Source: Kutzneria sp. 744
Lineage (GTDB): Bacteria > Actinomycetota > Actinomycetes > Mycobacteriales > Pseudonocardiaceae
Direction of reading: 5' to 3'
DNA length: 41,990 bases
Assembly: GCF_000568255.1 (NCBI RefSeq)
Contig: NZ_KK037166.1
Coordinates: 3,379,634 to 3,421,623 of the forward strand
This document shows, one piece after another, positions 84 through 41,893 of this stretch (positions within the stretch are counted from its first letter, which is position 1; every line of letters starts with the position of its first letter). The position numbers and the translations under genes were made by a program. The notes beneath the pieces are model-generated. The model saw nothing but the letters and a program-made list of their open reading frames with translations. It ran no database searches and was not told where the DNA came from.

Positions 84-695
84 ATGCCGCTGCGACGGGA
101 CCAGGTGGTCGAGGCCGCGCTGGAGCTGCTGGACGAGGTGGGGCTGGACGCCTTCACCACGCGGGCGCTGACCGACCGCCTCGGCGTGCAGCGCGGCGCC
201 CTGTACTGGCACGTCAAGAGCAAGCAGGACCTGCTGGCCGCGGTCACCGAGCTGGTGGTGCGACCGGTCTTCGCCGACACCGGCGAGGAAGGCGGCGACT
301 GGGCCGACGACCTGGTGGAATTCGCCCACCGGCTGCGCGCCGCCATGCTCGCCCACCGGGACGGCGCCCGGCTCGTGGCCGCGAACGTGACGCTGAGCCA
401 GTCCGGGGTCGAGCTGATGGAGCGCACCCTCGCCCGGTTCACCGACCAGGGCATTCCGCTGCCGATCGCGGCCCGCTGGGGCGACATCATGGCCAGCTAC
501 GTCACGGGCTACGTGCTCCAGGAGCAGAGCAGCCCCGCGCCGGTGCCGGTCGAGGTCGGCGAGGTCGGCCCCGAGCTGCGGGACTTCTTCACCGACGGGC
601 ACCCCAGCAGCGCCGAGACCTTCGCCGCCTCGGTCCGGACCATCGTCCTGGGCATGCGCGCCGAGGCCGACACCTTGACCCCGGCGAGGGGTTGA
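84..695 (+). CDS. TetR family transcriptional regulator (TetR_C type)
   Basis: A 203-residue repressor. Residues about 1-47 form the TetR HTH: MPLRRDQVVEAALELL is followed by the recognition-helix region with RGALYWHVKSKQDLL. The remainder is an all-helical ligand domain of the TetR_C (tetracycline repressor C-terminal) kind. I chose ATG 84 because AGGAGAGG lies just before it and the HTH starts at once; an in-frame codon at position 9 would put the operator inside the gene. The stop is directly followed by the ATG of the AfsR-like gene, so the two are surely co-transcribed. The double palindrome at 9-38 is the likely operator. The ligand is unknown; the nearby FAD monooxygenase hints at a small aromatic or antibiotic-like molecule, which is only inference. 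Confidence 0.9.
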   Translation: MPLRRDQVVEAALELLDEVGLDAFTTRALTDRLGVQRGALYWHVKSKQDLLAAVTELVVRPVFADTGEEGGDWADDLVEFAHRLRAAMLAHRDGARLVAANVTLSQSGVELMERTLARFTDQGIPLPIAARWGDIMASYVTGYVLQEQSSPAPVPVEVGEVGPELRDFFTDGHPSSAETFAASVRTIVLGMRAEADTLTPARG

Positions 696-3368
696 ATGGG
701 CGCGGTGCGGGTCGGGGTGTTGGGGGAGCTGGATTTTCGGGGGTTCGATGGCGGGCGGGTGGAGGTCGGCGGGGCGATGCTCCGGACGCTGCTGGTGCGG
801 CTGGCGGTGGACGCGGGGCGGATCGTCACGACGGACCGGCTGATCGCCGACCTGTGGCCGGAGTCGGCGCCGGCGGAGCCGGGGGCGGCGTTGCAGTCGC
901 TGGTGGCGCGGCTGCGCCGGGCGGTCGGGCGGGAGGCGGTCGACTCGCATCCCACGGGCTACCGGCTGGACGCCGAGGTCGACACCAAGCAGTTCGAGCG
1001 GGCGATCGCCGAGGAACGGCCGCGGGAAGCGCTGGAGCTGTGGCGGGGCGCCCCGCTGGCCGACGTCGGTGACGCGGAGTTCGCCCGGGCCCCGATCGCG
1101 CGGCTGGAGGAGCTGCGAGCAACGGCGGTCGAGGCGCGGATCGACGCCGACATCGCAGCGCAGCGGGACGTGATCGCCGAGGTCGAGGAGTTGGCGGCGG
1201 CGCAGCCACTGCGCGAAGGCTTGCAGGCCAGGCTGATGCTGGCGCTGACGGCGAAGGGCCGCCAGGCCGATGCCCTCACCGCGTACGACCGAGTGCGCAA
1301 GCTGCTGGCCGATCAGCTGGGCGTGGATCCGGGGCCGGAGCTCCGGGAGGCGCACCTGCGTGCCTTGCGGACGACGTCGACCCGCTCGAACCTGCTGGCC
1401 CGGCTGACCAGCTTCGTCGGCCGTGACCTGGAACTGGACCAGGTGACGCGAGCCTTGGCCGGCGCACGGCTGGTGACGCTGACCGGGACCGGCGGCACGG
1501 GCAAGACAAGGCTGGCGGTCGAGGCGGCGGAGCGGCTGCTGACGGATTTCCCGGACGGCGTCTGGCTCATCGACCTCACCTCGACGACGGACGTCATGGC
1601 GGCGACGCGAGAGGCGTTGGACACGGCCGACCATCCGCGCGACTACCTGGTGACCCGGAACTCGTTGCTGGTGCTGGACAATTGCGAGCATGTGATCGAC
1701 GCGGCGGCCGACTTCGCGGCGGATCTGCTGACCCGCTGCCCCCGGTTGAAGATCCTGGCCACCAGTCGCGAGCCGTTGAATGTCACGGGCGAGACGCTGT
1801 GCCCGCTGCGCCCACTGTCCGACAACCAAGCCGTCGCCCTGTTCACGGACCGAGCCCGCGCCGTGAGTCCGGGTTTCCGCGCCGACGAGTCCGTTATGGA
1901 CATCTGCCGAGCCTTGGACGGCCTGCCGCTGGCGATCGAGCTCGCGGCAGCGCGGATCCGGTCGCTCACGCCATCCCAGCTCGTCGACCGGCTGGGCGAC
2001 CGAATCGGCCTGCTGGACAAGGGAACCCGGGCCGCCCCACAACGGCACCGCACGCTGCGGGCGGTGATCGACTGGAGCTGGGACCTGCTCGACGAGGACG
2101 AGCGAACCCTGTTGAGCCGGCTGTCGGTCTTCGCCGGCGGGGCGACGCTGGAGGCGATCGAGCAGGTCACTCAGGGAACCCTGGACCAGCTGACGTCCCT
2201 TGTGGACAAGTCGCTGGTCGTGGCGACCGAGGAGCGTTACCGGCTGCTGGAGACTATCCGCGAATACGCGGCGTCCAAACTGGACGGTGACGAGACCCGG
2301 CAGCGGCACGCCGCCTACTACACGGAACTGGTCGAGCGGGTCGAGCCGTTGCTGCGCGGCCTCGGGCAGGCGGCGTGGCTGACGCGGTTGACCGCCGAGC
2401 GGGCGAATCTGGACCTGGCCATGTCTCCGCGCATGTTCACCGCCCGCCTCTGGCTGTGGCTGGTGCTGGGCCAGTTGCAGGATCCCTTGCGCTGGGCGGA
2501 AACCATCGACACCGACGAGGCCAAGCTACTGAGAGCGCCGACCGAGGAGCTGCTCGACCGCCTCGCCATGGCGGACGGCCCCGCCACGCTGGCACTGGTC
2601 GTCATCCGCAGCGGCAACAACACGAAACGCCTGGCCGGCATACCAGAAAGGCTCAGCGAGTCCGATGACCCGTGGCGGCGGGCGGCCGGCGAGCTGTTGC
2701 ACGGCTATGTCGCCTCGGAGATCAGCGATGGCGCCGTCCCTCAAGCCGAACGGCATTTCGCCCAGGCGGCAACGGCTTTCCGTGAACTCGGCGATCAGGT
2801 CGGGCTCACCTACGCCTTGACCTTCCTGTCCATCTCCCAGTCCAGCCGCGGCGAGAACGAGGCGGCCCTGCGCTCCGCCTCCGAGGCCCTGAGCCTCGGC
2901 GTGCACGTGCCCACGCTGTTGCACGTGCAGTCCGCGCAGCTCCAGGCCCGCACCGGCGACATCGCCGGCGCCCGCCTCCTGCTGGAACGGGCCGAGCGCA
3001 GCACCCCCAAGGACGATGCCGTGTCCCTGGCCCGGGTGCACAACGCCCTGGCCGAGCTGGAACGCCTCGACGGCAATCTCCCGAAAGCCGTTGCCTGGCA
3101 CCGAACCGCCCTGGCGGCCGACGTCACCGGCGCCCCCGCGCAGTTCCTGGCGTTGCTGCGAATGAACTACGCGCTCACCCTGACCGCGCTCGGGGAACGG
3201 GCGGAGGCTGGCCGTCAGCACGAGATGGCGGTGGAGTTGGCCATGCGGACCAAGGACGCGCCCGCCCGGACCATGGTGCTGGAGGCGCAGGCGGAATGGT
3301 TCGACAGCGGCGGCGACCAAGACCGGGCCGCCGCCCTCCGCGCGAAAGCCGCGGCGCTGAGGGGATGA
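696..3368 (+). CDS. AfsR/SARP-like regulator with BTAD, NB-ARC-type ATPase and TPR regions
   Basis: An 890-residue multidomain activator. It begins with an OmpR/SARP-like winged-helix region (VGVLGELDFRG, then TTDRLIADLWPES), followed by a bacterial transcriptional activation domain to about residue 225. An STAND-type ATPase follows, with Walker A GTGGTGKT near residue 265, Walker B-like LLVLDNCEH near 323, and an LPLAIELAAARI motif. The C-terminal 400 residues are helical, TPR-like. The ATG follows the TetR TGA with no gap, preceded by GAGGGG, so translation is coupled. Such proteins often control secondary metabolism or local catabolic genes, but no biosynthetic cluster is visible here. It converges with the FAD monooxygenase gene with one base between the stop codons and no hairpin. 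The target is unknown. Confidence 0.9.
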   Translation: MGAVRVGVLGELDFRGFDGGRVEVGGAMLRTLLVRLAVDAGRIVTTDRLIADLWPESAPAEPGAALQSLVARLRRAVGREAVDSHPTGYRLDAEVDTKQFERAIAEERPREALELWRGAPLADVGDAEFARAPIARLEELRATAVEARIDADIAAQRDVIAEVEELAAAQPLREGLQARLMLALTAKGRQADALTAYDRVRKLLADQLGVDPGPELREAHLRALRTTSTRSNLLARLTSFVGRDLELDQVTRALAGARLVTLTGTGGTGKTRLAVEAAERLLTDFPDGVWLIDLTSTTDVMAATREALDTADHPRDYLVTRNSLLVLDNCEHVIDAAADFAADLLTRCPRLKILATSREPLNVTGETLCPLRPLSDNQAVALFTDRARAVSPGFRADESVMDICRALDGLPLAIELAAARIRSLTPSQLVDRLGDRIGLLDKGTRAAPQRHRTLRAVIDWSWDLLDEDERTLLSRLSVFAGGATLEAIEQVTQGTLDQLTSLVDKSLVVATEERYRLLETIREYAASKLDGDETRQRHAAYYTELVERVEPLLRGLGQAAWLTRLTAERANLDLAMSPRMFTARLWLWLVLGQLQDPLRWAETIDTDEAKLLRAPTEELLDRLAMADGPATLALVVIRSGNNTKRLAGIPERLSESDDPWRRAAGELLHGYVASEISDGAVPQAERHFAQAATAFRELGDQVGLTYALTFLSISQSSRGENEAALRSASEALSLGVHVPTLLHVQSAQLQARTGDIAGARLLLERAERSTPKDDAVSLARVHNALAELERLDGNLPKAVAWHRTALAADVTGAPAQFLALLRMNYALTLTALGERAEAGRQHEMAVELAMRTKDAPARTMVLEAQAEWFDSGGDQDRAAALRAKAAALRG

Positions 3369-29190: not shown

Positions 29191-30132
29191 ATGGCGCGAC
29201 TGACGGCCGGTGGCCGACTACGGCAGGCCCGGCAGAACTCGAGGCGCGCGGTCCAGCCCCTGGCCGCGCCCGCGGAGCCGCCGCGCCCCGCGCGCAAGAA
29301 GGTCGGGGCGGGCTGGCTGGTGTACGCGTTTCCGCTGGTCATCGCCCTGACGGCGATCACGGGCTTCCGCGTGCTGAAGGAGCAGCCGCCGGCCGAGCCG
29401 ACACCGACGCCGGTGGCCGCCGGCGCGTCGACGCCCGTGTCCATCGGCGAGGCCCCGCCCGGGGCCAAGTTCGCCAAGCAGCTGGCGTCGGCCCAACTGC
29501 CCGACGGCGGCCCCATTCCCGCGGTCGGCAAGGGCACCTTCCACGTCGTGCCCGGTGCCTCGGCCCAGATCGGCAAGGGCAAGCTCACGACGTACACCAT
29601 CGAGGTGGAGGACGGTTTCCAGCCGGTCGGCGGCGACGCGCTGTTCGCCGAGACCGTGCAGAACACCCTGTCCAACCCCAAGAGCTGGATCGGCGGCGGC
29701 CAGATCTCGTTGAAGCGCGTCGACTCGGGAAAGGCCGACCTGCACATCCGCCTGGCGTCGCAGCAGACCACCCGTGATCCCAAGGTGTGCGGCTTCGACA
29801 TCCCGTACGACACGTCCTGCCGCCTCGACGACAACGTCTACCTCAACGACGCCCGCTGGGAGCGCGGCGCGGTGGCGTTCCAGGGCAACATCCTGCTGTA
29901 CCAGCAGTACGCTGTGAACCACGAGGTCGGGCACTTCTTCGGCGGCAACCACCTGCCGTGCGCCGACAGCGGCGGGCTGGCGCCGGTGATGATGCAGCAG
30001 ACACTGTCCACCGCGAACAACGACCTCGCCGACCTCACCACCCAGAACCCGCAGGGCATCGTCGTGCCCCGCGACGGCAAGGTCTGCCAGCCCAATCCCT
30101 GGCCGTTCCCGGTGGCGGGCCAGGGTCAGTGA
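29191..30132 (+). CDS. DUF3152 membrane-anchored putative metalloprotease-like protein
   Basis: A 313-residue protein. A basic N-terminus (about 45 residues, RQNSRRAVQPL) precedes one membrane helix (GWLVYAFPLVIALTAITGF) and a Thr/Pro/Ala linker. The extracytoplasmic DUF3152 domain starts with GTFHVVPGASAQIGKGKLTTY. It contains CGFDIPYDTSCR and NHEVGHFFGGNHLPC, an HExGHxxGxxH-like zinc site at residues about 243-253, plus VMMQQT. The motif is as in metzincin-type peptidases, and the family is widespread in actinobacteria without known substrate. ATG 29191 lacks a strong ribosome site. It is probably monocistronic. Confidence 0.87.
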   Translation: MARLTAGGRLRQARQNSRRAVQPLAAPAEPPRPARKKVGAGWLVYAFPLVIALTAITGFRVLKEQPPAEPTPTPVAAGASTPVSIGEAPPGAKFAKQLASAQLPDGGPIPAVGKGTFHVVPGASAQIGKGKLTTYTIEVEDGFQPVGGDALFAETVQNTLSNPKSWIGGGQISLKRVDSGKADLHIRLASQQTTRDPKVCGFDIPYDTSCRLDDNVYLNDARWERGAVAFQGNILLYQQYAVNHEVGHFFGGNHLPCADSGGLAPVMMQQTLSTANNDLADLTTQNPQGIVVPRDGKVCQPNPWPFPVAGQGQ

Positions 30133-30252: not shown

Positions 30253-30612
30253 ATGACGTCGGACCGCGTGCCCAGTGGTGACGGCGCCCGGATGTCCAAG
30301 GTCCACTCGGACGCCCAGCAGGCGATGCGAACCCAGCAGGCCCTGGCCGCCCGCACCGTCGCCGACCACTGCCTCGACGCCGACGACCGGGGCACCCTGC
30401 TCGAAATGCTCGGCCTCGACGACGACAGCGCCCGCGAGGACGTCTCGGCCGCGCTCACCGTCGGGCTCAACGCCTACCTTCGGGCCGTGGCCCGCGCCGT
30501 CGGCGTGCCTGCGAACATATCGAAATACAGATGGCGATGGCTTCTTGTGTGTCGACCAGCTGCCCGTCGGTTCGAACGAACGTGCTTGAGATACACTATC
30601 GGATCATGTTGA
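30253..30612 (+). pseudogene. Small hypothetical gene interrupted near its 3' end by low-GC DNA
   Basis: ATG 30253 follows GGGAG. The first 87 codons (to 30513) have typical host codon use and encode a soluble helical protein with ARTVADHCLDADDRGTLLEML and NAYLRAVARAVGVPA. After 30513 the frame enters low-GC DNA and ends at 30612 with an alien tail (NISKYRWRWLLVC...). At 31050-31059 the sequence CGTGCCGGCG nearly repeats CGTGCCTGCG (30504-30513). Joining the two gives ...AVGVPAAF followed by TGA at 31066-31068, 11 bp before a terminator. The intact gene was therefore probably 89 codons. Function is unknown. The reconstruction is inference from frame and flanking repeats. Confidence 0.6.
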
Positions 30613-31049
30613 GGTTCGCCACACGCGGCCTTAAGCACTTCGATATGCCTTGCTTTACCCTCATCGACATCCCCACAGTCCGTGCGGGATTTAAGCGGTG
30701 CATTCTACCTGTCGCTATCATATTACCTTACCACACAAGGAACCGGATGCTCGTAGACCACTCCACGACAGCCTTTGTGACGCTCCCCTTCAGGGGTAGC
30801 CCGGACCGCAGGGTCTCGAACGATAGCATACACTGCCTAGTGACGCATTCTCTTATGGTCGACTATACGATGTTTCAAATCTAAGCTATTCCTGATCAAA
30901 CTGAGCCGCCGGAGGGTGTGCATATTAAAAACAGCGAGCCTTATCGCCAATCCTGAGGAGGCTGTACTGGCCCCAGTGTAGTCTGTTACATACGGATTAC
31001 CCTGGTCCCACATTTCGTGATCAATGAGGAATCTGTGTCATAGCTACGT
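30514..31049. other. Low-GC inserted segment of about 540 bp, no recognisable content
   Basis: By hand count 260 of 506 bases (about 51%) are G or C in 30541-31046, against well over 65% on both sides; the change is abrupt at each end. Flanking 10-mers CGTGCCTGCG (30504-30513) and CGTGCCGGCG (31050-31059) match at 9 of 10. Inside I see no terminal inverted repeats, transposase, tRNA or conserved protein. A 117-codon frame at 30531-30884 has no ribosome site and no host-like codon use. Small hairpins exist (CCCCTTCAGGGG at 30785-30796; GGACC/GGTCT at about 30803-30816), as expected by chance. Candidates are a foreign insertion, a non-coding element, or an assembly or synthetic artefact. Confidence 0.75.
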
Positions 31050-31079
31050 CGTGCCGGCGGCCTTCTGACCCCGGACAGC

Positions 31080-31120
31080 ACCGCGGCCCGGTGGCTTTCG
31101 CCACCGGGCCGCGGTTTTTT
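31080..31120 (+). terminator. Strong intrinsic terminator, plus-strand orientation
   Basis: Perfect 15-bp arms ACCGCGGCCCGGTGG (31080-31094) and complement (31101-31115) with loop CTTTCG are followed by a run of six T (31115-31120). The T-run shows it serves transcripts coming from the left, that is the interrupted small gene. The stem could also stop csp transcripts from the right, but without a U-tract. Confidence 0.85.
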
Positions 31121-31134
31121 GCTGGTGTCTACGC

Positions 31135-31338
31135 TCAGACGGCGTTGACGGCCTGGGCCTGCGGGCCCTTCTGGCCCTGGCCGACCTCGAAGCGCACGCG
31201 CTGGTTCTCCTCGAGCGACTTGAAGCCGTTGCCCTGGATCTCCGAGTAGTGCACGAACAGGTCGGCGCCACCGTCGTCGGGGGAGATGAAGCCGAAGCCC
31301 TTCTCCGAGTTGAACCACTTCACGGTGCCCTCAGCCAT
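31135..31338 (-). CDS. Cold-shock protein, CspA family
   Basis: A 67-residue single-stranded nucleic acid chaperone: [20 protein letters not shown] carries RNP1 (KGFGFI) and DLFVHYSEI carries RNP2 (LFVHY). The full five-strand OB fold is present and ends [10 protein letters not shown]. It acts as an RNA chaperone in the cytosol. ATG 31338 follows GAGGAG. The 248 bp upstream to the next gene is moderately lower in GC and may hold a long 5' leader, as is common for csp genes, but I could not identify a thermosensor fold. Confidence 0.95.
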
Positions 31339-35671: not shown

Positions 35672-36502
35672 TCAGGGCCTGGCACTGGCCTTGGCGGCCG
35701 CATCGGCCACCGAGAAGACCTTCTGTCCGTATTCCACCGAGTTGTTGTACGACAGCACGGCCGCCCACCAGCCGGCGGCGGTGGCCAGGTCGCGGCCGCC
35801 CGCGCACAGGTAGCGCGCCGCGGACACGGTGGCGTCGTCGATGTTCTGCGGGTTGGCGACCCCGTCGCCGTTGCCGTCCGAGGCCCAGTTCCGCCAGGTG
35901 GACGGGATGAACTGCATGGGGCCGACGGCGCGGTCGTGCACCGGGTCGCCGTCGAGGCCGCCGCCGTCGGTGTCGGAGATGTCGGCCACGCCGGAGCCGT
36001 TGAGCGGCACGCCGACGATGGGGCGGGTCTCGTCCCCGTTGGCGGCCAGCGTGGCGCCGCCGAAGCGCCCGTGGTCGGACTCGATGCGGCCGATGCCGGC
36101 CAGGAAGGTCCACGGGATGTGGCAACCGGGCTGCACCTTGGCCATGGTGAGGTCGGCATTGGCGTACGCGCGCAGGGCGCGGGCCGGTATGCCGGTGGCG
36201 CCGGACACGCGCGCCAGCCAGACCTCGGCGGTCTCCTGCCTACCGGCGGCACTGGCCTGGGCCGAGGGCTGCGCGGCGTCGGCGGCCGGGGCCGCCGCAC
36301 CGACCCGCACCGGTGCCGGCGCGACGTGCAGCGCGGGGAAGTCGACCGCGACGGGATGAGGCGTGGGCGTGCTGGCCCGATCGACCAGCCACAGCGCCGC
36401 GCCCGCCACCGCGAGCACAAGAAGGACAACCAGCAGCCGGAACACCACCTTCGGCGGGCGAGCGGACGGCTGCGCCGTCGGCTCGGACTGCTGGATCGCC
36501 AT
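35672..36502 (-). CDS. Lytic murein transglycosylase (SLT/MltB-like domain)
   Basis: A 276-residue membrane-anchored or secreted enzyme. One N-terminal helix (FRLLVVLLVLAVAGAALWLV) is followed by an Ala/Pro-rich spacer to about residue 90. The catalytic domain includes IPARALRAYANADLTMAKVQPGC, then WTFLAGIGRIESDHGRFGG with catalytic Glu141, then AVGPMQFIPSTWRNWASDGNGDG and ATVSAARYLCAGG. Such enzymes cut peptidoglycan to 1,6-anhydro muropeptides. TAGCCT lies 6 bp before the GTGGTGATG cluster, consistent with a leaderless mRNA beginning near ATG 36502. It is monocistronic by position. Confidence 0.92.
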   Translation of the reverse strand: MAIQQSEPTAQPSARPPKVVFRLLVVLLVLAVAGAALWLVDRASTPTPHPVAVDFPALHVAPAPVRVGAAAPAADAAQPSAQASAAGRQETAEVWLARVSGATGIPARALRAYANADLTMAKVQPGCHIPWTFLAGIGRIESDHGRFGGATLAANGDETRPIVGVPLNGSGVADISDTDGGGLDGDPVHDRAVGPMQFIPSTWRNWASDGNGDGVANPQNIDDATVSAARYLCAGGRDLATAAGWWAAVLSYNNSVEYGQKVFSVADAAAKASARP

Positions 36503-36574
36503 CACCACAGGCTACCCACAAGTAGCCACAAAACCACTGGCTGCCGGCGGCGACTCACCGCCGGTTCGCCTGAT

Positions 36575-41446: not shown

Positions 41447-41893
41447 GTGTTTTCCCAGCAAGCGCCGGAGCCGCGGCTGAGCTACCTCGTGGGGCGGCTG
41501 GACCGCGCCCTGCGGCTGCTCATCGAGGACGCCGTGCGCCCGCATGGCCTGACCGTGCCGCAGTACACGACCCTGTCCGTGTTGCAGCGGCAGACCGGGC
41601 TGTCCAACGCGCAGCTGGCTCGGCGGGCGATGACCACGCCGCAGTCGATGAGCGAGGTGATCGCGGCGCTGACCAAGGCCGGCCTGATCCGGCGCGAGGC
41701 CGATCCGGCGCACGGCCGGATCATGCGCACCGAGCTCACCGCGGCCGGCGAGGCGGTGCTGGACAAGTGCGAGCCGCTGATCAACGAGATCGAGACGCGC
41801 ATGCTGGCCGAGCTGTCCACCGGCGACCGCGACCGCCTGCCTCTGCTGCTGCGCAGCTGTGTGCGCATGCTCAGCTCCGGTTCGGAGAGCTGA
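41447..41893 (+). CDS. MarR family transcriptional regulator
   Basis: A 148-residue winged-helix repressor. RLSYLVGRLDRALRLLIEDAV forms the dimer helix. LTVPQYTTLSVLQRQTGLSNAQLARRAMTTPQSMSEVI is seen here as LTVPQYTTLSVLQ, LSNAQLARRAM and PQSMSEVIAALTKAGLIRRE, followed by the wing (DPAHGRIMRTELT). GTG 41447 is 9 bp after TAACGT, consistent with a leaderless mRNA. It shares a 28-bp divergent promoter with the hydratase/lyase gene. MarR repressors of ferulate and coumarate genes in other bacteria respond to the CoA thioester; that role is inferred here. Its 3' end overlaps the convergent ligase gene by 23 bp. Confidence 0.9.
   Translation: MFSQQAPEPRLSYLVGRLDRALRLLIEDAVRPHGLTVPQYTTLSVLQRQTGLSNAQLARRAMTTPQSMSEVIAALTKAGLIRREADPAHGRIMRTELTAAGEAVLDKCEPLINEIETRMLAELSTGDRDRLPLLLRSCVRMLSSGSES

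Follow-up and report, generated by a model that had tools for sequence, protein, structure and literature searches.

The stretch analysed here, referred to as the window, comprises 41,990 nucleotides of the genome of Kutzneria sp. 744 (11,646,492 bases) and is exactly the one piece between two gaps of 100 N (contig positions 3379634–3421623). The locus of interest is a gene interrupted by a segment of deviating composition. The two real parts of the gene, a probable terminator and the adjacent gene, whose product we take to be a member of the cold-shock protein family, are listed in Table 1. The frame upstream of the segment has a match in 13 of the 41 genomes searched, the strain's own included, among them each of the six congeners; the complete genes of five congeners and of one genome from a different genus were read and aligned. 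Over the shared part, the protein identity of the 5' part is 74% to G004 and 77% to G003; in G002 the match, seen as a match alone, lies in an open frame of 237 aa. The three relatives scanned against Pfam all contain the DUF6292 domain (PF19809; E-values of 2.7e-25 in G004, 9.7e-28 in G003 and 6.2e-28 in G006), which starts at residues 75–87 and ends at residues 158–173. The window's own frame gave no DUF6292 match in the Pfam scan, and DUF6292 was not found in the literature searched.

Table 1. Features at the interrupted locus (positions in the window)
Feature	Position	Strand	Basis
Real 5' part of the interrupted gene, codons 1–87; relatives encode a DUF6292-family protein	30253..30513	+	protein homology
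Gap filler, pseudo-random, 528 letters	30514..31041	. (written in + direction)	rand() recurrence 497/497, regeneration with 0 mismatches
Real 3' end of the interrupted gene, closing with codons Y V V P A A F and the TGA stop	31042..31068	+	aligns with gene ends in G003 and G004
Probable terminator separating the interrupted gene from the cold-shock gene: perfect 15-bp hairpin with a T-run after it	31081..31120	+	read in the sequence
Presumed cold-shock-protein gene, 67 aa, real flanking anchor	31135..31338	-	translation

The stop codon of the gene (TGA, 31066–31068) was correctly placed by the first-pass annotation shortly before the hairpin with its T-run, and G003 and G004 have a similar G+C-rich inverted repeat at the corresponding position. 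Each of the six congeneric genomes contains sequence similar to the cold-shock gene, paralogues being counted together. In G003 and G004, too, the DUF6292-family gene lies next to a cold-shock gene, and in G002 both matches lie close together. Further upstream, the gene at 29191–30132 encodes a 313-aa protein with the motif NHEVGHFFGGNH, presumably a zinc-protease-like motif.

The first-pass annotation described an alien segment of about 51% G+C, flanked by the 10-bp near-repeats CGTGCCTGCG (30504–30513) and CGTGCCGGCG (31050–31059). Both the composition and the positions of the flanks hold: positions 30514–31042 contain 50.9% G+C, the remaining 500-bp bins of the window contain 63–76%, and the bin of the segment is the only one below 60% (bins read to position 41500). 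Its left limit, 30514, was likewise correct; its right limit, 31049, has to be moved, since the foreign letters end at 31041. With the exact limits, the segment measures 528 letters and its edges are sharp. Homology to the relatives ends 1–8 nt from the edge of the filler, and on the right the G003 match starts 1 nt past it.

Comparison with the relatives determines what is absent. Between the sites equivalent to the two edges, G004 has 298 bp and G003 has 303 bp, and the gene is continuous in both. The relatives thus carry about 100 more codons, including most of the DUF6292 domain, at the place where the filler sits, and most of the domain-holding part is missing from the copy in this assembly. 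The proposal that joining the near-repeats restores the gene therefore fails: the joined form would lose about 100 codons and is not the native allele, and the continuous gene of the relatives, in which the uninterrupted allele was to be seen as joined flanks, instead carries about 300 bp more. Because the window's last codons line up with the end of the G003 gene, CTACGCCGCGCCGGCGGACTTCGGCTAG, the near-repeats are gene sequence flanking the gap and represent separate portions of a single gene.

Searches with the segment disclosed no relatives in phages, plasmids or viral contigs. In 200 family genomes, searched up to an E-value of 10, its own copy was recovered and elsewhere, among the matches listed, short stretches, the best non-self match having an E-value of 0.002 over 34 letters. 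A genome-wide match search found the segment once in the genome assembly, so that its presence is not an error limited to the window. The earlier statement that no known RNA is encoded is upheld for the whole window, in which no Rfam family at gathering score and no tRNA was found. A frame of 117 aa within the segment (30531–30884) was considered as a gene and rejected; it has no Pfam or PHROGs match and no viral relative, and is a product of chance within random letters.

A sample of 800 kb of the strain's own genome was then considered, consisting of 400 kb contiguous around the window and 400 kb as 20 scattered pieces. A scan of this sample for low G+C revealed several further islands of about 240–530 bp, near 50% G+C and with sharp edges; among 11 islands compared, the longest common stretch was 11–16 letters. 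The base use and the dinucleotides of the segment are consistent with independent uniform letters. Islands with sharp edges, without common sequence and with the composition of uniform letters raised the suspicion that the letters had been made by a computer. The low-GC comparison in the composition test contained other filler and was not a clean control. The 3-base periodicity of the segment (20.4) is high for the uniform-letter model, being reached in 0.24% of 5000 simulations; it is taken as chance, since the recurrence described below fixes all letters.

With A, C, G and T coded as 0, 1, 2 and 3, the letters of the segment correspond to the two lowest bits of the C library function rand() with additive feedback. 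The recurrence o[i] = o[i-3] + o[i-31] + {0,1} mod 4, which a single position obeys by chance in about one-half of the cases, fits 99% of the positions when the edges are cut by G+C content, and with the exact edges it is obeyed at all 497 testable positions. The leader of the rRNA operon, a genuine low-GC control, yields 56%, near the expected half. The carry equals 1 in 0.258 of the segment positions, as compared with the 1/4 expected for the low two bits. For regeneration of the letters, the hidden lowest bit was treated as unknown, with 31 letters and 31 hidden bits fixed. The resulting 256 linear equations in 31 unknowns contain no contradiction, and from their solution the other 497 letters are reproduced with 0 mismatches. 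When the stream is extended in both directions, the match ends exactly at 30514 and 31041. The natural-order A, C, G, T coding gave the best fit, shared with its complement, in 10 of the 11 islands, which are all those that fit; the eleventh, without a fit, is the rRNA operon leader. An examination of the linear complexity of single bits in the segment revealed nothing, and none of 20 probes was found in 4 x 10^10 outputs of the default-seed rand() stream.

Stretches of this kind are confined to the strain's own genome in the material compared. The control set comprised 1.2 Mb from other genomes; runs of at least 30 positions obeying the recurrence were absent from 400 kb of G004 and from 400 kb of G003. 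Outside the segment, the longest runs were 12–17 positions across the window and the control genomes (15 in the window, 17 in 400 kb drawn from 20 genomes). Exact 20-letter matches to the stream numbered 0 in G004, 2 in G003 and 1 in the 20-genome set, which is about the chance level.

In the 800 kb of the strain's own genome, 20 stretches follow the recurrence, including that of the window. After chance letters had been trimmed from the ends, 18 of them yielded a solution on their own, and every one of these 18 belongs to a single continuous output stream; the two short stretches insoluble alone were located on the regenerated stream. Two pairs of neighbouring stretches abut in the stream, with 0 letters drawn between them, which implies that the generator served no other purpose at these points. 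Stream order rises along the chromosome in the contiguous region (3.2–3.6 Mb). In the samples at 7.0, 8.0, 9.0 and 11.0 Mb, the filler is reverse-complemented and the stream order runs backwards; a stretch at 9.5 Mb is forward. For the four reversed stretches the carry equals 1 in 0.73–0.77 of the positions, the proportion that reverse complementation should give. Some of the 29 stream matches of at least 20 letters are chance hits: three in the 400-kb stretch, one of them in the window at 36497–36516, are out of stream order.

Thirteen stretches of the contiguous region were compared with relatives, and none of them matches there. Syntenic flanks were present for 11, and for 2 there were none in the pieces compared. 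The intervening sequence of the relatives differs clearly in length for 10 of the 11 (486 vs 130, 397 vs 56 and, at the present locus, 528 vs about 300), and in one case the lengths agree within 5 letters (153 vs 152–155).

The filler is also related to the N-runs. Within 3.2–3.6 Mb, an N-run is present in every interval in which more than 133 stream letters were drawn, and intervals with 0 letters drawn are without N-runs; two intervals are exceptions, with 133 and 8 letters drawn and no N-run. In these 400 kb, the positions of the N-runs thus agree with letters that were drawn but are not shown. About 1.29 million letters were drawn between the outermost stretches seen, as opposed to about 6.4 kb of filler in the 800 kb. 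This excess may be explained by larger gaps having ended as N-runs, an account that fits the order of events along the stream. The sampled 800 kb contain 41 N-runs, 26 of which are exactly 100 long and the others 176–3006; some may be masks and some assembly gaps.

We conclude, with a probability of about 99%, that the segment is pseudo-random filler for an unsequenced assembly gap and is not the DNA of any organism. Of the three interpretations offered by the first-pass annotation (a small element, a scrap of foreign DNA or an artefact), the last is demonstrated directly by the recurrence, the regeneration and the common stream. According to the scheme we propose, the assembly program would have written one pseudo-random base instead of N for each missing position, the bases being the two low bits of an additive-feedback rand() or random() generator. 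The length of 528 would represent a guess of the gap size and not the true length, which is about 300 bp in the relatives. The filler was presumably written on scaffolds before their final order and orientation, so that reverse-complemented filler would result in some regions. Letters would have been drawn for every scaffold gap, larger gaps would later have been turned into N-runs, and the scaffolds would afterwards have been turned round and joined. The stage at which this happened and the assembly software as its source are inferred. The real organism most probably possesses an ordinary uninterrupted DUF6292-family gene at this locus. In a seven-genome comparison of Kutzneria (PMC10232511), the assembly of strain 744 is given as 11.64 Mbp in 534 contigs with a completeness of 87.3%, the poorest of the seven, many of its genes being fragmented or missing.

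Insertion into the gene between 10-bp target repeats, either of a small non-autonomous mobile element or of a scrap of foreign DNA, would account for the low G+C content, the sharp edges and the match of the flanks at 9 of 10 positions. Such an insertion would have to consist of letters that at 497 of 497 testable positions are the output of the rand() recurrence, and the other such stretches have no sequence in common with it. Since about 300 bp of gene occupy this place in the relatives, nothing was inserted into an otherwise complete gene; excision of the segment and one repeat would not yield the native allele of relatives (298–303 bp of gene), the filler stops before the right repeat is reached, and further copies are lacking, as seen from the single match in the genome and the 11–16 letters at most that islands share. 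The probability of an insertion, be it an element or foreign DNA, is practically nil. The same applies to the idea that the gene has a native C-terminal domain which evolves fast or has been replaced: the filler does sit where most of the DUF6292 domain lies in the relatives, yet its letters match the rand() generator, and filler of the same type occurs at 19 other sampled places, so that this reading is negligible.

Somewhat less remote, although still very improbable, is the addition of the filler after deposition, in a later step of database packing or data preparation in which N was replaced by random letters. Packing programs such as bwa index replace ambiguous positions with pseudo-random bases, hence with letters of the same kind. 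A single left-to-right pass over the finished record would not, however, produce the reverse-complemented, backward filler at 7.0, 8.0, 9.0 and 11.0 Mb, and the 41 N-runs of the 800-kb sample, among them the 26 with a length of exactly 100, have remained N. Moreover, the lrand48()&3 generator, the scheme of bwa index, gave no match when it was tested. The filler in the assembly gap thus resembles the replacement made by packing programs in that missing positions became pseudo-random bases, and it differs from the lrand48 scheme in its additive-feedback rand()/random() stream and in a step that seemingly preceded the orientation of the scaffolds.

Like the N-runs used in scaffolds, the filler marks an unsequenced stretch between real contig ends, and its length is not the true length. 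Unlike N-runs, it consists of plausible A, C, G and T letters, so that it looks like real sequence, creates spurious reading frames and encourages erroneous findings. Biologically there is no element at this locus, and the value of the observation lies in the warning: each patch can truncate or distort the feature it interrupts and can be mistaken for an orphan gene or an island of foreign DNA. In the literature on random-base gap filling, none of the titles among the matches listed deals with this artefact; the phrase 'gaps filled with random' occurs in PMC4777764. We see about even odds that other public assemblies from the same software carry rand() filler unnoticed as ordinary bases, in which case some orphan frames and 'foreign islands' would be random output, provable and removable by the recurrence test. 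This test is cheap, conclusive and applicable to any assembly. The genes in the region 3.20–3.60 Mb of the strain's genome should be read with care. Besides the segment in the window, that region contains 12 further filler stretches of 96–482 letters and a likely one of 31 letters.
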